Below, one piece after another: positions 10,739 through 19,751 of a DNA stretch of 20,158 nucleotides. The DNA comes from a virus. The notes below the pieces were generated by a model. That model was given only the letters and a program-made list of their open reading frames with translations. It did not search any database and was not told where the DNA came from. The position numbers and the translations under genes were made by a program. The stretch is taken from positions 1 through 20,158 of the IMG/VR virus record IMGVR_UViG_3300000235_000034. One strand, 5' to 3'. Positions within the stretch are counted from its first letter, which is position 1. Each line of letters begins with the position of its first letter.

Positions 10739-10994
10739 TGTTTTTCTCATTGAAAGGTTTTACAGTTTTTGCAACTTGTGCAAACAGCTTGAACAATTCA
10801 GGGTTTGAAAGAATCACTTTCATAGCAAACGAAATTGGCAATTGTCCAGTTTCAACTTTTGAAATGAATGAATAGGTTTGTTGAAATATTGCACTAAATT
10901 CTTCACGGGAAACATTTAGTTCACTTCTTGTTTTAAGAACACAATGGTTCCAATCAAGAATTTTCTTTTTGTCATCTTTTATTTTTAATTGCAT
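10722..10994 (-). CDS. XRE/Cro-like helix-turn-helix protein
   Basis: 90 aa from ATG 10994, preceded by GGGGG; a longer frame to 11012 is less likely. Residues about 24-50 fit an XRE-type helix-turn-helix: LKTRSELNVSREEFSAIFQQ followed by TYSFISKVETGQ, with the S-x-E-x-F and I-S-K-x-E-x-G pattern of the family. It is short and has no dimerisation or cleavage domain, so it resembles Cro or a small regulator rather than a full CI repressor. The start overlaps the membrane protein gene by 10 nt. It might act on the intergenic region around 12139-12537, but that is inference. Confidence 0.65.
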   Translation of the reverse strand: MQLKIKDDKKKILDWNHCVLKTRSELNVSREEFSAIFQQTYSFISKVETGQLPISFAMKVILSNPELFKLFAQVAKTVKPFNEKNNVAKK

Positions 10995-11275
10995 AATCTT
11001 ATGAACCCCCAAACAATAACAATTTGAGTAGAAGAAAGAAGTGTGAACATTGACATTGAAGAAGCAACAATGACCTTCTTGAATCCTTTTTTATCACTTG
11101 GCAACGAATAACCGCTTTCAATTCTTGTTTGAAGCTTGAAAACTAAATATTCATCTTCAGTAATAGAATTTACTTGCTTCAATTCTGAAAAGACTTTATA
11201 AACAACATAAAGCGACCAGCCCCCAATAAATAATGAACAAATCAACAGAAGTGCTTTCAACAATAATATTTCCAT
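10985..11275 (-). CDS. Two-span membrane protein (96 aa)
   Basis: Not recognised. From ATG 11275, preceded by AAAGGA at good spacing. A first membrane span lies at about residues 4-25 (LLLKALLLICSLFIGGWSLY), a charged loop with EDEYLVFKLQTRIES in the middle, and a second span at about 70-92 (ASSMSMFTLLSSTQIVIVWG). Two spans and this length would fit a holin or a superinfection protein, but it lies in the early operon, far from the endolysin. The frame extends to a TTG at 11356, which lacks support. Confidence 0.65.
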   Translation of the reverse strand: MEILLLKALLLICSLFIGGWSLYVVYKVFSELKQVNSITEDEYLVFKLQTRIESGYSLPSDKKGFKKVIVASSMSMFTLLSSTQIVIVWGFIRLCN

Positions 11276-11381
11276 TTTTATTTTTCCTTTTTGTTTGTTT
11301 GTGAAAAGTGCGGGGTTCCCCCTGACAATACACCAAAAGAAGGTTAGAAGGTGCAAGCAACATTAGGGAACCGCTTAAACC
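11276..11381 (-). other. Short non-coding gap with weak promoter-like and dyad sequence
   Basis: About 106 nt between the 147-aa gene and the membrane protein gene. On the minus strand TTGCAC (11351-11356) and TGTATT (11327-11332) are 18 nt apart, a weak sigma70-type match (3/6 and 4/6). Just after it is the tight dyad GGGGAACCCC. GGTTCCC/GGGAACC elements at both ends could pair over a long loop. An internal promoter is possible but unproven. Confidence 0.25.
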
Positions 11382-12138: not shown

Positions 12139-12144
12139 GTTGTA

Positions 12145-12173
12145 ATAATACCTTTCTTTTTCACAATACGCAA
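12145..12173 (-). promoter_or_regulatory. Candidate sigma70-type promoter of the early operon
   Basis: On the minus strand TTGCGT (12173-12168) and TATTAT (12150-12145) are 17 nt apart; the -10 matches 5 of 6 consensus bases and the -35 three. The predicted start would be at about 12138, on the first ATG of the next gene, which favours one of its internal ATGs. A plausible but unproven promoter. Confidence 0.35.
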
Positions 12174-12236
12174 ATAAAAAACAACTTTTTCAAGTTATTT
12201 TTCAAAAAGTCGTGAACAAGTTGTTGGCAGATTGAC

Positions 12237-12277
12237 TTTTGTATGAATTTTGTGTGTTTCGTAAATGGTCGGGGGGT
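12237..12277 (+). repeat. Left arm of imperfect 41-bp inverted repeat
   Basis: Plus-strand arm, gap-free match to the reverse complement of 12368-12408 at 34 of 41 positions. Conserved blocks are TTTTGTATGAA at the outer end, TGxGTGTTTxG in the middle and AAATGGTxGGGGGGT at the inner end. Confidence 0.85.
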
Positions 12278-12367
12278 CAAATCTTCTTTCTTCCATCTTA
12301 TTTATTGATTGTATGATTAGAAAAAATATTGGTTAGGTGATATAAACCACCATCACACAAAGAAAAC

Positions 12368-12408
12368 ACCCCCCTACCATTTTCAAAACACTCATTTTTC
12401 ATACAAAA
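12368..12408 (-). repeat. Right arm of imperfect 41-bp inverted repeat
   Basis: Minus-strand arm, paired with 12237-12277. The inner 15 bases match at 14 positions and the outer 11 are identical; the 15 between are less conserved (9 of 15). Block-wise conservation without gaps suggests two protein-binding sites in opposite orientation rather than a stem-loop RNA. Confidence 0.85.
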
Positions 12409-12490
12409 ACCACTTTGTGCAAAAACCCGCAAGGAAGCGTTTTAAGCCCTTCAAAGTATTGGGTGCGGTCTTTGTACCAAAGAAACAAGA

Positions 12491-12511
12491 AAACCCCCTT
12501 TTTGGGGGTTT
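12491..12511 (-). terminator. Rho-independent terminator of the late operon
   Basis: A perfect 8-bp stem (AAACCCCC / GGGGGTTT) with a 5-nt loop, 26 nt past the endolysin stop. On the minus strand it is followed by TCTTGTTTCTTT. The hairpin is symmetric enough to work in both directions and would shield the early region from late read-through. Confidence 0.8.
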
Positions 12512-12537
12512 GTTTAGGGAAAGAAACGGTGTTTTGG

Positions 12538-12996
12538 TCAGCCTTCACCCGCAACGCTGGAAGAAGCAAAGTTCAATTCATTCTTTGGGTCAACAATCAA
12601 GCGCCCAAACTTCCACGGGTCACCCTTCTTTGATTTCACGCCAAACCAAAAAGCGGGTTCCTTGCGCAAATCAAGGTGGAAAGAATATCCTTCCCCGTTC
12701 CAGTAAATTCCAACACCGAGAAACCCCGCTTTCACCGCTTGCTTAAAAACCCAATACGGGTCAGCACTGGAAGCAAGGAAGAAATCAACCGCTTCACCTT
12801 TGGGGTGGAATTCGCTTTTGTGGTTCCCCGTTGTGATTCCGTTGTGAAGCAACTTGATTTTGATTTCAATTGCTTTTCTGAAATTCACAAAGCGTTGGAA
12901 CAAAGCGAAAGAAACTTCTTCCAGCTTTGCACCCGTTGCTTCAATTTCTTTCTTTGAAAAATATGGTTCAAGTTGTTTGCATTCTTTTTCAGTCAT
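12538..12996 (-). CDS. M15-family peptidase endolysin
   Basis: A 152-aa single-domain peptidoglycan peptidase of the M15 (D-Ala-D-Ala carboxypeptidase/L-Ala-D-Glu endopeptidase) group. The zinc-site pattern is visible: SEFHPKGEAVDF (S61, H64, G67, D71), matching SxHxxGxAxD with one extra residue after Ser, and SFHLDLR with H107. A GFLGVGIYW segment precedes the second motif, as in the family. No signal peptide or cell-wall-binding domain, so it would need a holin or other membrane damage to reach the wall. Single-domain endolysins are typical of phages of Gram-negative hosts. AGGTG precedes ATG 12996. Last gene of the late operon, directly before the terminator. Confidence 0.85.
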   Translation of the reverse strand: MTEKECKQLEPYFSKKEIEATGAKLEEVSFALFQRFVNFRKAIEIKIKLLHNGITTGNHKSEFHPKGEAVDFFLASSADPYWVFKQAVKAGFLGVGIYWNGEGYSFHLDLRKEPAFWFGVKSKKGDPWKFGRLIVDPKNELNFASSSVAGEG

Positions 12997-13004
12997 TGTT
13001 GCAC

Positions 13005-13877
13005 CTATATACCGACAAACTTTGGCTCAAGTTTCACGCCGAAATCAATGTTGCTTGCATAGCAAGTTGTGGGGGCATCACTTCTAAATCTTACACCTAA
13101 AGAAGTTACACCAGCGGGAACTTCAAAGAATAAAGAACAAGAAGAAGACTGTTCAATGAACCCAACATCAACGGTCATTCCACTTTGCCCAGTAACAAGA
13201 CAAGAACTCTTGAAAGATTCACCAAGGGCCTCATATATTGAATCGTCGGTTTGATCAACGATTACAAGTGAGGAATAATGAGCTTTATTGAACCGCAATT
13301 GCGCGTTCAAATTTACAGAACACAACCAAGAAGTTGCCCCTGAAGGCAAGGCTGGAATTGCGGTTTGCAAGTCTGCAATTGTTTGAACTGAATCCACAAT
13401 TGCGGAGTGAAATTTATTTGACATTCTTGGCAGAACTGAATTGTTCAGCTTAACAAGTGAAACCGCGCTTGCTGCAATCTTTGTTTCAGTCACCGCCCCC
13501 GCCAAAATTTTTGTTGAAGTCACCGCGTCACTAGCAATTTTTGGTTCCGTCACTGCAAGGTTTCCGAGTTTTGCACTTGTCACCGCAAGATTCAAAATTT
13601 TTGCAGTTGTGACCGCATCACTAGCAAGAGCGGTTGCACCAATAATTCCCTTGGTTGTAATGGCTTGCCACAGTTGACCCCAATTGCCCGTGTGGTCATC
13701 ACTTGCGGTTGCGTTCAATGCCATTCCAGCGTTTTCAATCACAATTGCAATTTCTTCTTGCACCGCATTCATAAATTCAGCGGGGAGCCTTGTTGCCTTT
13801 TGTGTTGGTGGAATCGCTGAAGCAAAGCGCCTTTTTCCGCTTTCAATTTTATAGTCTTCGCCTTGCGTTCTATGCAT
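13005..13877 (-). CDS. Tail fibre/spike-like protein with decapeptide repeats
   Basis: 290 aa. The N-terminal part contains LPAEFMNAVQEEIAIVIENA (31-50), a segment often found in phage fibre and tail-spike proteins. Residues about 85-145 are six decapeptides of the type xxAVTxxKIx, a fibrous beta repeat. The C-terminal 140 residues, with two Ser/Cys-rich strands, form a likely receptor-binding or decoration domain. ATG 13877 has a strong GGAAGGA ribosome binding site lying across the patatin stop. Ends with TAG 9 nt before the endolysin gene. Probably a second receptor-binding component beside the large fibre; alternatively a short virion decoration fibre. Confidence 0.7.
   Translation of the reverse strand: MHRTQGEDYKIESGKRRFASAIPPTQKATRLPAEFMNAVQEEIAIVIENAGMALNATASDDHTGNWGQLWQAITTKGIIGATALASDAVTTAKILNLAVTSAKLGNLAVTEPKIASDAVTSTKILAGAVTETKIAASAVSLVKLNNSVLPRMSNKFHSAIVDSVQTIADLQTAIPALPSGATSWLCSVNLNAQLRFNKAHYSSLVIVDQTDDSIYEALGESFKSSCLVTGQSGMTVDVGFIEQSSSCSLFFEVPAGVTSLGVRFRSDAPTTCYASNIDFGVKLEPKFVGI
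13443..13625 (-). repeat. Decapeptide-coding repeat region in the second fibre gene
   Basis: Six 30-bp units coding for SDAVTTAKIL-, NLAVTSAKLG-, NLAVTEPKIA-, SDAVTSTKIL-, AGAVTETKIA- and ASAVSLVKLN-like decapeptides. The DNA repeats the GTCACCGC-type block on the plus strand. The units have diverged, so this is a structural protein repeat, not a recent expansion. Confidence 0.8.
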
Positions 13878-13878
13878 T

Positions 13879-14781
13879 TTATCCTTCCTTTGTGAAAAAG
13901 TTCAGTTGTTCACGGGTCTTCAAAAATTCTCGTTCCCAAATGTTTTTGATTTGTTCCAAGTTGTTTGTTGCATCCAAAGCATAATCTTCACCTTTGAACA
14001 AGTCAGGAACAATTGCAAGAAAATTCTTGTTGTTCATAATTCGTTTCAAATAGAAGTTTGTACTTTCTTCATTTCCAACGGTCAGGAATTGAAGCAAGAC
14101 GGGAAGCCATTGTGCTTTCAAAAAGAAATTTACTTTGTTGTTGCGTGCAATAGTTCCTGAAGTTCCGATTGAAAGAAGTGAATAATCTTCTTCCTTCTTT
14201 CCTTCAAGGTGCATCATTCCACACAAACCAGCAAGGGAAGGATTGTTTGCCCAAAGTCCACCGTCAACAAATGTTCCCTTGATTCCAACCTTCTTTCCTT
14301 CAGCGGGTGCAAAATAAGTTGGTGTGCTCATTGAAGCAAGCACCGCAAACCAAAGCGGAATGTTTGGGGTTTGGTCAATGCTGAACACTTCAGTTTTGTC
14401 TTCTGTGACATTGGTCACGGGAATGAACAAAGGCTTCAATTGTTTCCTTGTGAAGTCATCATTTCCAAAGACTTCCTTGAAAAGACCTTCAGCATATTTG
14501 GAAGAATAGGTGTTTGCCTTGTTCAGTCCAGAAAAGAAACCTTCCTTTGTGAAAATCTTCTTTGTGTGCGCGCGGAACAAATAAACAATTTCAGTTTCAT
14601 TCATTCCGCAAGCAAGACAAGTTGCAACGATTGAACCAACTGAAGTTCCAGCAAATGCAATTGGGAGCGTTGAAGCGCTGAACGCTGAAAGGGAAGCGCA
14701 TTGTTCAAGGTATCTTGCAACCCCAAAGCCCCAAACGCCCCCGCCATTGATTGAAAGAATTATGTTCTTGCGTGCATTCAT
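13879..14781 (-). CDS. Patatin-like phospholipase
   Basis: 300 aa from ATG 14781, preceded by AAGGG; the frame runs on to a TTG at 14802. All patatin motifs are present: oxyanion hole NGGGVWGF (about residues 12-19), nucleophile elbow AGTSVGS (Ser about 47) and the catalytic Asp in VDGGLWANNP (about 173). ASMSTPTYFAP also matches the family. Such enzymes hydrolyse acyl chains of membrane phospholipids. No signal peptide, so it acts in the cytoplasm or as a virion part. It lies between tail-fibre genes and the endolysin, and starts 4 nt after the coiled-coil gene. Likely roles are membrane disruption at lysis or modification of the host envelope at entry; the choice is inference. Confidence 0.85.
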   Translation of the reverse strand: MNARKNIILSINGGGVWGFGVARYLEQCASLSAFSASTLPIAFAGTSVGSIVATCLACGMNETEIVYLFRAHTKKIFTKEGFFSGLNKANTYSSKYAEGLFKEVFGNDDFTRKQLKPLFIPVTNVTEDKTEVFSIDQTPNIPLWFAVLASMSTPTYFAPAEGKKVGIKGTFVDGGLWANNPSLAGLCGMMHLEGKKEEDYSLLSIGTSGTIARNNKVNFFLKAQWLPVLLQFLTVGNEESTNFYLKRIMNNKNFLAIVPDLFKGEDYALDATNNLEQIKNIWEREFLKTREQLNFFTKEG

Positions 14782-14785
14782 TGTT

Positions 14786-15214
14786 TCAGCCCTTATCTTC
14801 AAGAAGTTTCAAAACGGTTGTGACTTGCGAAATAGTAATTTCAACAGAATGCACAATGTCCTTCACTTCAGAAATTGCTAAACGCAACTTGTCAAATTCT
14901 TCCCGTTGAAGTTGATTATCTTCCCGTGAATGTTCCCGCATTTTTGCAAGGTCTTGTTCAATTGCCTCAATTCGCTTCCCATATACACCAACTGAAACGC
15001 CAATTCCCGCAACAACGGCTTCTTGTTTGCAAACGCATTCATTGGGAACCTTCTTTGAACTGGTTGAAGTTTGTGTGTCATTTTCTTTTTCTTTTTTGAA
15101 TGAAGTAACGGTTGCACGCACAACAGTTTCAGCAAGTTTGGTCACAAGAACACCCAAACCCGCTGAAATGGAAGCAAGACCAACAAGAGCATCATTTGAA
15201 AATTCTTGTGCCAT
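14786..15214 (-). CDS. Hypothetical coiled-coil protein (142 aa)
   Basis: Not recognised. The N-terminus is moderately hydrophobic (DALVGLASISAGLGVLVTKL), a second Ala/Gly/Val-rich stretch follows a Ser/Thr/Lys linker and two Cys (CVCKQEAVVAGIGVSVGVYG), and the rest is a charged helix with heptads up to a VTTVLKLLEDKG end. It might be a membrane-associated lysis protein; two weakly hydrophobic stretches plus a coiled coil recall hemolysin-like XhlA, but the match is loose. Position between the fibre genes and the patatin and endolysin makes a lysis role possible. A GAAAGG ribosome binding site precedes ATG 15214. Confidence 0.6.
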   Translation of the reverse strand: MAQEFSNDALVGLASISAGLGVLVTKLAETVVRATVTSFKKEKENDTQTSTSSKKVPNECVCKQEAVVAGIGVSVGVYGKRIEAIEQDLAKMREHSREDNQLQREEFDKLRLAISEVKDIVHSVEITISQVTTVLKLLEDKG

Positions 15215-15235: not shown

Positions 15236-15643
15236 TCAGTTGTCAGGTGTAAAAGTGTGAATCTTCTGTGAAATTGGGTCACGCACGCACAACTTGCTTG
15301 AATAAAGATCAAAGAACAAGTTGACATTACCTGAAGAATCTTTTGCAAGGTATGAAATTCCCTTTGCTTTGTGATATTCACAATAAGCATTGGTAAAAAA
15401 TTCAACCGCCTCATTTTGATTCTTCGCAATGTCATCAATTTCAAAAGAAATTTTTTCTTCTGGAATCAATGCAACAAGAAGCGTTGAATTTTCTGGTTGA
15501 ACAATTGCACCGCAAAGAAGTCTTTGTTCGGGTGTTGCGGTCAATGTATCAATCTGAAGAACTTCACCAAATCCAAGAATGAATTCAGGAACATTCAAAA
15601 CCTTCAATGAAGTGTTTGTTGTGTTTCTAATTGTGACTTTCAT
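15236..15643 (-). CDS. Hypothetical late protein (135 aa), possibly fibre-associated
   Basis: Not recognised. It is beta-rich at the N-terminus (MKVTIRNTTNTSLKVLNVPE, then FILGFGEVLQIDTLTATPEQ) and has a helical middle with SFEIDDIAKNQNEAVEFFTN. ATG 15643 lies directly after the fibre stop (TAAATG), with GGAG about 9 nt upstream inside the fibre gene. The position suggests a fibre partner or chaperone, but no tail-fibre assembly motif is seen. Confidence 0.65.
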   Translation of the reverse strand: MKVTIRNTTNTSLKVLNVPEFILGFGEVLQIDTLTATPEQRLLCGAIVQPENSTLLVALIPEEKISFEIDDIAKNQNEAVEFFTNAYCEYHKAKGISYLAKDSSGNVNLFFDLYSSKLCVRDPISQKIHTFTPDN

Positions 15644-17416
15644 TTATTCAATCTCCATATTGACAATCAAGCGGTCAATGCGTGAAATTTGTGAGTTGTC
15701 AGCGTTCCAACCAGCAACAGGCGCAACGGTAACACCGTAAAGTTTTGCAACATCAAGTTCAACATTCAAACCAACCAAGCGCCCTTCAACAATTGAGTTT
15801 GTTCCACCTGAATTATTTTGAACATTTGCTTGGTATGTTGAAGAAACTTGAATTGTGTATGTTCCAACCAATACATGATTTGCATTGTCAATTTGAACTT
15901 CCCAAAGTTGCAACTTGAAGAAAGAAGGTGAAATGACTGAATCACCGTTTGTTCTTCCCTTCACACCAAAGAATGAAAGTGAAATCATTTTTGTTGCTGG
16001 TTTGGAAATGCGAATTGGTGAAAGCGCACCGTTTGCATAGGCATTGTTATTCACGGTTGATTTGTCACCGCCTGAAACATTTCCGTTTCCATTCAAGGTC
16101 AAACAATTTGCGGGGTTCCCGTATGTTGGTGCGGAACCTTCACCACAATTCGCACCAAAATTTTGTAATCTGAAAACGCGCAAATCTGAAGGTGGTGTTC
16201 CAGTCGCGGAAATTTGTATTAAACCGTTTGGAAGTTCTTCAAATACTACATTTGAACCCGCAACAAATTTTGAACTTAGCTTCAAATGCCAGTCATCACC
16301 TTCTTCTTCAATTGCTTCAACCAATACACCAAAACCACCTTCAAGCTTTGCTTCCAAGAAATCAGGGGTTGCGTCTGAAGAATTTGTTTTCACGGTGTAG
16401 GTGTCTGAAGAAGAACTTGAAAGATTCACAACAACGGGGGCAATTGGAATTTCTGCAAAAGTCACAATATTTTGTGCGATCTCAATTCCATCAAAACAAC
16501 TTGCACGCAAATACATATTGAAAGTTGTGGTTGCGAAAACCGCACGCAACTGGATTTTTCCTTGATAGTAGCCAGTGGTGAAAGTTGGAGCTTCACCTTT
16601 TACGGTTAACAAAACAATTCTTCCTTGGTGATTGGTTGATTGTTGGAAAACACCAAAAATCATTGGTGCATTTTGAGCGCTTGAAATCTCAAACAAAACC
16701 GTGCTTGCACTTCCATTTACTTCAAACAAATCGACAACGGTTGCTGGAAAAACCGCTTTCCCTTCTTGTAAATACTTTGAACCAGTAATCGAATCAACAT
16801 ATTGTTTTGTGACAAGGTGCGCGTTTTGTGTTGGTGTAGCTCCAGCAACGGGAGCGGTGAAAGCGCGCAAACCATTTGCCAAAATATATTGCGTGTGGTC
16901 ATCAGCTCCAAGGTTGGCCAGTGCTGAATGGGAAATATTAGAAGGGTCAACTTCAAGTTCATTGTTTACTACTTTCAAAGAAGAACCAAACAAGAATGAA
17001 AGTTCTTGTCCATTTAAAGCAAGCGGTTTCCCGTCCGTTTCAGAAAGAACAAGCGGGGGGTGAAGATTTTCTTTTTCAAATAGTGTAACATGGAACCGTT
17101 CAGTTGAAGAACCGCCCTGTAAACCGCTCATTTCGTTATGTTCGGGAATATCGCTTGCGCTTAAACTTCCCGCAACAATATTTCCTTGGGCATCAACTTT
17201 TGCTGGTCTTGTTCCAGCACCAACAAGATTTGAAACGCGCATTGAAAAAACAAGTGCGGGTTTGTTCTTTGCAAGCCAACGAGAAACTTCACCAGTTGAA
17301 TCTTTTCCTCCCCACATCCTAATTCCCAAATCTGAATCAATGTTTGGTTCACAAGCAATTTGGAGAAGTCCAACTGCTTCAAGTGTTGAATTTATGCGTA
17401 CAAGTTTGATTTCCAT
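15644..17416 (-). CDS. Tail fibre protein
   Basis: 590 aa, the largest late gene in the window. It contains fibre hallmarks: PEHNEMSGLQGGSSTERFHV (91-110), SHSALANLGADDHTQYILAN (162-181), GLRAFTAPVAGATPTQNAHL (182-201) and LVTKQYVDS (201-209). These HxxLxxLxxDDHxQY and HLVTKxYVD motifs are shared by many phage fibres. The N-terminal ~60 residues probably attach to the baseplate. The C-terminal half is Ser/Thr/Asn-rich and beta-like, as expected for a trimeric fibre carrying the receptor-binding tip. ATG 17416 has an AAGGAAAG ribosome binding site. Follows gp48 as in Mu-like tail operons. Confidence 0.8.
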   Translation of the reverse strand: MEIKLVRINSTLEAVGLLQIACEPNIDSDLGIRMWGGKDSTGEVSRWLAKNKPALVFSMRVSNLVGAGTRPAKVDAQGNIVAGSLSASDIPEHNEMSGLQGGSSTERFHVTLFEKENLHPPLVLSETDGKPLALNGQELSFLFGSSLKVVNNELEVDPSNISHSALANLGADDHTQYILANGLRAFTAPVAGATPTQNAHLVTKQYVDSITGSKYLQEGKAVFPATVVDLFEVNGSASTVLFEISSAQNAPMIFGVFQQSTNHQGRIVLLTVKGEAPTFTTGYYQGKIQLRAVFATTTFNMYLRASCFDGIEIAQNIVTFAEIPIAPVVVNLSSSSSDTYTVKTNSSDATPDFLEAKLEGGFGVLVEAIEEEGDDWHLKLSSKFVAGSNVVFEELPNGLIQISATGTPPSDLRVFRLQNFGANCGEGSAPTYGNPANCLTLNGNGNVSGGDKSTVNNNAYANGALSPIRISKPATKMISLSFFGVKGRTNGDSVISPSFFKLQLWEVQIDNANHVLVGTYTIQVSSTYQANVQNNSGGTNSIVEGRLVGLNVELDVAKLYGVTVAPVAGWNADNSQISRIDRLIVNMEIE

Positions 17417-17437: not shown

Positions 17438-18157
17438 TTAAGCCCAAACAATGTTCAAGTGTGCGGGTTTGGATTTTTCAATTTCGCTTTTCATCAGTTC
17501 TTCGTTTCCCGTACCTGAAACTATTGTAAAAACAACCGCTGAAGTTTGTCCTGAATCATTCAATCTTGAATCAACTCTTGAACCGATATTCCAAGGGTCA
17601 ATTCCAACGGGAGCACAATAAAAAGGCTCTGAAATGCCACTTCCCGAATTGATTGTAATTGTGAACCCAAATACAGAAGCATATTGAATAAAAAATTCAG
17701 CAAACAAACCAACACTCGCATCAGAATAAACAAGCGCATGACAAGCTTGTTGCCTTTCTTCCAGCGTTGCACCTTCAGGGGGAACAATATCAAGCAAACG
17801 TTCCCAATCTTCAAGAAGAACTTCAGCGTTCCCCGCAATGCTTTCTTTCAGGATAAACAAACCAGCGGAATCAATGCGTGAAAGTTCACTTGCGAACGCT
17901 GAAAAGAGAATTCCCAAGAAGCCCGTGGAAGGTTGTGTGTCTTCAGGTGTTGCAATTGTATCTTGAACAACATTGGAAGAACTTGTTGAATCATTCCAAG
18001 TTGTAGGTGAAAGAACGGAATCTTGAAAAAGATTGGTTGCAATCTTATTTATTTTGAAACCCCAAATGATTCCTTTAGGCAACAAATGACGGAACATCCC
18101 CAAGTATTCTTGGGAATCGTATTTCTTCACGGGAACAAAACCTTCGAGTGATTGCAT
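17438..18157 (-). CDS. Mu gp48-like baseplate/tail protein (DUF2313)
   Basis: 239 aa. The N-terminal YLGMFRHLLPKGIIWGFKI and the later DWERLLDIVPPEGATLEERQ segment, the latter typical of DUF2313/YmfQ proteins (Mu gp48), place it in the baseplate wedge. It starts at ATG 18157, overlapping the gp47 stop by one base (TAATG). The order gp45-gp46-gp47-gp48-fibre is that of phage Mu and many myoviruses. The C-terminus is Cys-poor and contains a beta-like region ending in SKPAHLNIVWA, also typical of the family. Confidence 0.85.
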   Translation of the reverse strand: MQSLEGFVPVKKYDSQEYLGMFRHLLPKGIIWGFKINKIATNLFQDSVLSPTTWNDSTSSSNVVQDTIATPEDTQPSTGFLGILFSAFASELSRIDSAGLFILKESIAGNAEVLLEDWERLLDIVPPEGATLEERQQACHALVYSDASVGLFAEFFIQYASVFGFTITINSGSGISEPFYCAPVGIDPWNIGSRVDSRLNDSGQTSAVVFTIVSGTGNEELMKSEIEKSKPAHLNIVWA

Positions 18158-19272
18158 TAGGTGAATTCCGCAAAAGTGATTGTTCCAAGTTTTGCCAAAT
18201 CAAAACCCGTCATTTGTATGTCACCGTAAAAAGCACCGCTTCCTTCAGAGAAATAAACAACTTCAATGTTGTTTGCACCCGTGGAATAAACCGCTGAATT
18301 TATATGACTTTTCAGAATGGCTCCAGAAGGCACGCTTTCAGCAATGAATAAAGCATCCAAAGCTTCTTGCACCTTTGTACGAATTCCAATATCATTGAAC
18401 GGTTCAAGTTTAATATATGGGGAACACAACTTCACAACAGGATTGATTGCGGTTGCAACAACTCCAAGCGGTTTCTTTGCGTCAATGTTTGTTTGAACTT
18501 CGGCAAGCGTTGTCGGTGAAAGAATGCCAAATGAAGGAGTTGTGCAAACAACACCAACGGTCCCCGTTCCATTCCAATTTTCAAACACCCAAGCAAGACC
18601 AACACCAGAAACTTCTTTTGCCCAAGCAATATAATCTGAATCCCTTCCACCTGAAGGGGGCTTTCTAACTCTTGCGACAATACGAATTCTTAATTCGTCG
18701 TCGGTTTCTTGTTCAACACCGCCTGAAGGTTTTTCAGTATTATAAATTTCTGAATTGTTGATTCCTGAAATCGGTGTCTCTAAAGTCAATTGAAGCGTTG
18801 GGGTTTGTTCATTGTAATTTCCAGCAACACCACTTTCAAGCGCTTCAATTGGAATGATCGCATAATACACGCCTTGCGTTGTGATTATGGTTCCTAGTTC
18901 ACTTGTTTGATACTTTTGACCCAATGAAGTAGAAACAACGGTCCCTTGTGGAATCGCCGTTCCAAGTATTCCCCAAAACACCGCTTTCCCTTTTGCTTTT
19001 GTTGCGGGTTTCTTTGTAATTCCGTACAAATACCCAATGCGTTCAAGCCAATCTTTTTCAGCGGTGTCAGCAAAGATTTGTTTGGACAAATATTCAATAT
19101 ATCCATACAAAATATAAACCGCACCGCTGAAGACGGTGACCAGAATTGAAAGAAGACTTTCCCGCAAAATACGAACACGGGTGGTTTGTGTGCTATTCTG
19201 TTTTATTCTTGTTTCCAAGTCAGCCCTCACACGGGAATAAATATCTTTGATTGTCGGTTTTTGATACGGCAT
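18157..19272 (-). CDS. Mu gp47-like baseplate J protein
   Basis: 371 aa from ATG 19272, which overlaps the gp46 stop (TGATG) and follows GGGGG; a GTG one codon earlier is also in frame. Baseplate_J features: helical start PTIKDIYSRVRADLETRIKQ, AEKDWLERIGYLYGITKKPA, then the beta domain with GTAIPQGTVVSTSLGQKYQT, and a GGVEQETDDELRIRIVARVR segment with PSGGRDSDYIAWAKEVSGVG. These are standard for the wedge protein that builds the baseplate core. Confidence 0.92.
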   Translation of the reverse strand: MPYQKPTIKDIYSRVRADLETRIKQNSTQTTRVRILRESLLSILVTVFSGAVYILYGYIEYLSKQIFADTAEKDWLERIGYLYGITKKPATKAKGKAVFWGILGTAIPQGTVVSTSLGQKYQTSELGTIITTQGVYYAIIPIEALESGVAGNYNEQTPTLQLTLETPISGINNSEIYNTEKPSGGVEQETDDELRIRIVARVRKPPSGGRDSDYIAWAKEVSGVGLAWVFENWNGTGTVGVVCTTPSFGILSPTTLAEVQTNIDAKKPLGVVATAINPVVKLCSPYIKLEPFNDIGIRTKVQEALDALFIAESVPSGAILKSHINSAVYSTGANNIEVVYFSEGSGAFYGDIQMTGFDLAKLGTITFAEFT

Positions 19273-19751
19273 CACAAGCCCCCAAACATTTGTTGTTTCC
19301 AGTTGTAGAAATATTGAAAGAAAGTATTTTGACCAGTTGAACCAACTACAAACACTTTTATTGTGAAAGTTTTTGGGTCAGTTCTTTCAGCCTTCACTTG
19401 AATTTCGTTTGCAATCCCGTCTTTGGTCATCCAATCAAGCGCTTCCTTTGTGTATTGTTCCAACAAAGGAATGACATTTTGCAAACTCTTTTCCCTTCCC
19501 AATGTCCAAAGCTTTGAACCAATGCGGAACCCCCGCAAGTCATCACCAAACCAACCGCCAAGATATTCTTTCAACTTGGTTGCTTCTTCAGGTGTTGCCC
19601 GTCTGTCAGAAAAAAGAGAAATCAAAATTGCGGTTTCAAAACCTTCATCACTTTTCAAATCAAGAACTTCATTGTTTGAAAGAATGTCTGGTTGAATGTC
19701 AGCAAAATCAAGTTCAGTCAAATAGAAATGAATATCACCTTTGAAATCCAT
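19272..19751 (-). CDS. Mu gp46-like baseplate wedge protein
   Basis: 159 aa from ATG 19751. Phage GP46 family signs: an ILISLFSDRRA stretch, KLKEYLGGWFGDDL (the R/GGWxGD motif), and SKLWTLGREKSLQNVIPLLE. The frame runs on to 19787, but that would overlap the gp45 gene; ATG 19751, 2 nt after the gp45 stop with GGGGG upstream, is preferred. It connects the central spike hub to the gp47 wedge in Mu-like baseplates. Confidence 0.9.
   Translation of the reverse strand: MDFKGDIHFYLTELDFADIQPDILSNNEVLDLKSDEGFETAILISLFSDRRATPEEATKLKEYLGGWFGDDLRGFRIGSKLWTLGREKSLQNVIPLLEQYTKEALDWMTKDGIANEIQVKAERTDPKTFTIKVFVVGSTGQNTFFQYFYNWKQQMFGGL

Follow-up and report, generated by a model that had tools for sequence, protein, structure and literature searches.

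An intact patatin-like phospholipase gene lies in the late operon of the viral record IMGVR_UViG_3300000235_000034, and we propose that its product is a late-expressed cytoplasmic phospholipase or acyl hydrolase that serves as an auxiliary lysis protein, additional to a holin. We put the probability of this reading at roughly 55%. The window, meaning the whole stretch of DNA analyzed here, is the entire virus record of 20,158 bases, which is classed as probably a fragment. Help in breaking the host membrane at exit is probable for this enzyme because the same enzyme sits in the lysis gene sets of several unrelated phages. An earlier note on this DNA had offered several roles for the patatin, namely, lysis, disruption of the outer membrane, carriage in the virion, and conflict biology; lysis, which is partly supported, is the best supported of them.

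The patatin gene and its late operon

The patatin gene (13879-14781, minus strand) begins with an ATG preceded by an AAGG-type ribosome-binding sequence and runs without an internal stop for 300 aa; there is also an in-frame TTG farther upstream (14802). Its product belongs to the Pfam patatin family PF01734, which it matches with 79.9 bits (cut-off, 27.7; E 3.6e-22). The gene had been described as complete and its three motifs as intact, and both statements hold. N12-GGG-VWG, G45-T-S47-V-G49, and D173-G-G are all present, although the oxyanion motif reads GGGVWG, with a Trp where nearly all relatives carry Arg or Lys. The protein also keeps G13-15, G45, S47, G49, F77, D173, G174, P181, S204, and D270, which are all the columns invariant across 30 aligned patatins. 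An AlphaFold2 model made from 30 sequences reached a pLDDT of 88.9, and in fold comparison at least 290 of its residues were aligned, with Z scores of 33.5 to patatin-17 and of 32-33 to CapV-type lipases (33.1 to one of them). The likeness to potato patatin-17 (PDB 4pkb, 1oxw) comprises the fold, 22% identity, and the Ser-Asp dyad, here Ser47/Asp173, whereas the Trp in the oxyanion motif and the gene context set the window patatin apart. The whole 300 aa form a single patatin domain, and neither the model nor the fold comparison revealed a tail-anchoring domain. Sequence and model together confirm a real patatin-fold hydrolase, for which acyl hydrolase activity is predicted from the kept catalytic residues.

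A DNA-pattern search with window residues 13-18 found GGGVWG in only one other viral contig, L005 (6843-7691). The patatin of L005 is also the nearest relative of the window patatin (31-33% identity; tree support, 93). Close relatives of the patatin, the likely endolysin, the baseplate J protein, and the 142-aa protein described below were not found in viral contigs. The patatins of the window and of L005, L016, L028, and L051 all match PHROG 25573, which is listed with unknown function.

Every recognized gene of the record lies on the minus strand. The late part opens, in reading order, with a spike-position protein and three baseplate proteins: a Mu Gp46-like protein (19272-19751; PF07409, 1.4e-25), a baseplate J-like protein (18157-19275; PF04865, 1.8e-56), and a Mu Gp48-like protein (17438-18157; PF10076, 6.5e-10; PHROG baseplate wedge, 1.8e-16). 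A 590-aa protein in fiber position (15644-17416), without a family match, follows. Between this large gene and the cassette lies that of a 135-aa protein without a family match above the cut-off (15236-15643). Then come the 142-aa protein (14786-15214), the patatin, a tail-fiber protein (13005-13877; PHROG tail fiber, 9.7e-13), and the likely M15 endolysin (12538-12996). A terminator-like hairpin just 3' of the latter (12491-12511, minus strand), which is a consensus match only, would mark the end of the late operon. A second block past the hairpin encodes DNA polymerase A, an SNF2-type helicase, an AAA_24 ATPase, a PD-(D/E)XK nuclease, a single-strand-binding protein, a MazG-like protein, and a RuvC-like resolvase, and this gene content identifies the record as that of a phage. 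The stretch 12140-12530 between the two blocks is non-coding; an imperfect inverted repeat of 50 nt within it (12228-12277 / 12368-12417) may be a site of regulation or replication.

Within this late tail/lysis operon, the patatin gene is packed at near-zero spacing: 4 bases separate its start from the 142-aa gene upstream, and the fiber gene begins 1 base past its stop. The earlier note had placed the patatin between fiber genes and the endolysin. This is correct downstream, where the fiber gene separates the patatin from the likely endolysin, but the upstream neighbor is the gene with a transmembrane (TM) segment and a coiled coil.

The 12538-12996 product matched annotated M15 endolysins by tblastn (E 1e-3) and, when aligned to them, keeps the HxxGxAxD and HxD zinc-ligand motifs; the endolysins matched are themselves Peptidase_M15_3 proteins (4e-21). 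Taken alone, the protein falls short of the Pfam M15 model. Its single-sequence structure model was poor (pLDDT, 57.6), and the fold search gave no usable match. An M15 endolysin is the likely identity of this protein.

The 142-aa protein has one N-terminal hydrophobic segment (residues 10-28; hydropathy, 1.79) and a charged (33%), heptad-patterned, coiled-coil C terminus. Family-profile and sequence searches with it returned no database relative and no match to a known holin family, and one Lys lies within the hydrophobic segment, so that the term holin-like is a guess from topology for this candidate. With such a candidate immediately upstream of the patatin, the previous statement that no holin is evident becomes doubtful. 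The companion statement on spanins stands, as none was seen in the fragment. Genome-wide absence of a holin or spanin cannot be claimed, since the record is probably a fragment. A 97-aa open reading frame on the minus strand (10985-11278), with hydrophobic segments at both ends, is an alternative membrane-protein candidate; it lies past the late terminator, in another transcription block, and was for that reason not adopted as the holin.

Patatins beside lysis genes in other phages

A patatin-based lytic cassette was proposed previously for Wolbachia phage WO, in which the neighbor of the patatin was called holin-like on account of its N-terminal TM segment and charged coiled-coil tail (PMC9203015). 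For the WO patatin, a role in entry or in exit was left open (PMC3173496). As in WO, the window patatin lies at the border of the tail module beside a small protein (less than 150 aa) whose N terminus carries a single TM segment and whose C terminus is a charged coiled coil, and the patatins of the two phages are about 27-29% identical. Because of the Lys in its segment, the 142-aa protein does not fully match the uncharged TM segment of the WO type. Moreover, it showed no BLAST similarity to the WO holin-like protein, and the likeness is thus one of form, which does not imply kinship. The window further differs from WO in having a likely M15 endolysin, whereas WO has no conserved endolysin. 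WO also adds an ankyrin protein; no ankyrin gene was seen in the window, where the proteins around the patatin gave no Pfam ankyrin match. The idea put forward for WO is already known, and the window is a variant of it with a wall-cutting enzyme. In the open-access literature searched, we found a lysis role for a patatin proposed for phage WO only, no account of the spread of patatins to other phages, notably crAss-like ones, and no biochemical or genetic test of any phage patatin met here; unseen reports may exist. An analogy, and only that, is offered by LysB of mycobacteriophages, a lipolytic enzyme of the lytic cassette that is needed for efficient release (PMC5707550). LysB is likewise encoded with lysis genes and acts in the last step of lysis, but its substrate, mycolyl-arabinogalactan, is unrelated.

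The viral scan returned 80 patatin loci, about eight of which are WO-type. A CD-NTase-like gene lies near the patatin in 11 of the 80; these loci are CBASS systems in prophages or mislabeled contigs. A verified endolysin (by Pfam or PHROG) was found beside the patatin in at least nine groups, none of which has a CD-NTase. The endolysins are of diverse types: GH19-like (L016), GH24 (L033 and L028), GH108 (L048 and L053), amidase/glucosaminidase (L051), amidase (L065), M15 (L069/L074), and CHAP (L045). Spacing is looser, at 134-501 bases, in L045 and in L059/L069/L074, to which we give little weight. A proximity test was carried out on the 50 records that were left after CBASS-like, WO-type, and duplicate loci had been sorted out by eye. 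Five of seven endolysins of families PF00959, PF05838, and PF01510 lay at most 1.5 kb from the patatin (probability under uniform placement, 6.6e-5), the lysozymes of L060 and L068, which lie away from it, being counted against.

One of these contigs, L028, shares the synteny of the window, Mu-type baseplate genes included: baseplate J, Gp48 position, fiber, chaperone position, patatin, a one-TM protein, and lysozyme. On the tree, the lysis-linked patatins are scattered, and at least six changes are forced on well-supported branches; the linkage of patatin and lysis genes therefore arose repeatedly. More than half of the viral patatins have no recognized lysis neighbor, and some occur in other contexts (L014 and L173). 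A viral patatin clade (L055, L084, L027, L030, and L017) lies near tail-fiber-like genes, with several members preceding a DNA-methyltransferase-like gene. Related patatins in L049, L056, and L063 lie just 5' of a conserved 665-675-aa gene that resembles a podovirus portal.

The clearest arrangement was that of a crAss-like pair, an assignment tested for L016. L016 (8794-11526) and L033 (8894-11397) encode, head to tail, a lipoprotein with a C-terminal TM segment, which is the topology of a u-spanin, followed by a holin, the patatin, and the endolysin. The L033 holin matches a PHROG holin (6.6e-5). In both, the patatin gene overlaps its upstream neighbor by 14 bases and the endolysin gene by 1-4. 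The two patatins are 60% identical; the holins and the endolysins have no significant similarity. These comparisons indicate that the patatin slot outlived the exchange of its holin and endolysin neighbors. The crAss-like patatin is an addition to the holin and not its replacement, and a spanin-like gene is also present.

CBASS lipases and rival explanations

The kinship to CBASS effectors to which the earlier note had drawn attention is real at the level of the sequence family. Indeed, the PADLOC profile of CBASS phospholipase effectors matches the window patatin at E 7.4e-44, its fold agrees over the full length with that of CapV, a cGAMP-activated phospholipase (PDB 9kh6, 9jeh, 8zr9; Z 32-33; 24% identity), and most loci of its closest bacterial relatives (50 of 80) have a linked CD-NTase. 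However, it scores 123.5 bits against the NCBIfam CBASS_lipase model (NF041079), below the cut-off of 200; no SMODS CD-NTase was found in the whole record; and on the tree it falls outside the CD-NTase-linked part. Most CBASS-specific positions also differ: in place of CapV F6, K7, K134, Q237, S238, and R256, the window patatin has N, I, S, N, E, and A, respectively. The comparison used residues conserved in CD-NTase-linked CapVs as a stand-in for those of the cGAMP pocket. On this evidence, the window patatin is not a CBASS effector or CapV. A role in conflict biology, in which a phage CapV homologue would sense or sponge CBASS signals or act as an abortive or competitor-excluding effector, draws on the same family kinship and is highly improbable in view of these differences; the late-operon place would also be ill suited to an early counter-defense gene.

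Two further explanations start from the position of the gene. The patatin might be a virion component that sits on the tail or baseplate and, as a lipase, alters the host envelope during entry, as would befit a gene between fiber-type genes and downstream of baseplate genes, and the choice between entry and exit is also undecided for WO (PMC3173496). We consider this unlikely, since a protein taken up by one patatin domain has no domain to anchor it to a tail and since the crAss-like patatin is wedged between holin and endolysin and not between fibers. It might instead be an accessory (moron) gene at the tail/lysis border, of varied use, for example, in host physiology or against competing phages, and with no direct part in lysis. 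The scatter of patatins across unrelated phages and contexts, with many viral copies lacking a lysis neighbor, speaks for such a gene, but a patatin gene whose start and stop overlap holin and endolysin genes, and which was kept while both neighbors were exchanged, is atypical of a free-standing moron, and we hold this explanation, too, to be improbable. Against the lysis role itself stand the majority of viral patatins without a recognized lysis neighbor, the fiber gene that parts the window patatin from the likely endolysin, the topology-based guess behind the holin-like label of the 142-aa protein, the frequent presence of accessory genes at the tail/lysis border, and the oxyanion Trp, which is unusual for patatins.

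Proposed role at lysis

If the patatin is an auxiliary lysis protein, it would, having no signal peptide, accumulate in the cytoplasm late in infection. There it would attack phospholipids of the host membranes, the inner membrane first and other membranes after the holin step. The released fatty acids and lysophospholipids would then finish the collapse of the membranes while the endolysin opens the wall. The patatin would work alongside the holin, and it may also take on or support a spanin-like function in the window phage, whose fragment shows no spanin gene. It had been suggested beforehand that such a lipase could replace or help a holin. Help is favored by the late operon, the holin-like partner, the likely endolysin two genes on, and the recurrence of patatins in lysis cassettes, whereas replacement is disfavored because a holin-like gene adjoins the patatin here and the crAss-like patatin directly follows a holin.

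More broadly, we tentatively suggest, as a proposal that could well go either way, that phage lysis proteins include, in addition to holins, endolysins, and spanins, a further recurrent class, the patatin phospholipases. Unrelated tailed phages, crAss-like ones included, would have drawn these on several occasions from the CapV/PNPLA pool, the window phage being one case. Wolbachia, the host of WO, is hard to manipulate; patatins inside complete holin-endolysin(-spanin) cassettes, in phages with ordinary wall-cutting enzymes, make the lysis idea testable. The patatins of lysis cassettes also suggest a function for PHROG 25573, and they suggest that one lipase fold may be used both by bacteria, for suicide in CBASS, and by phages, for exit.
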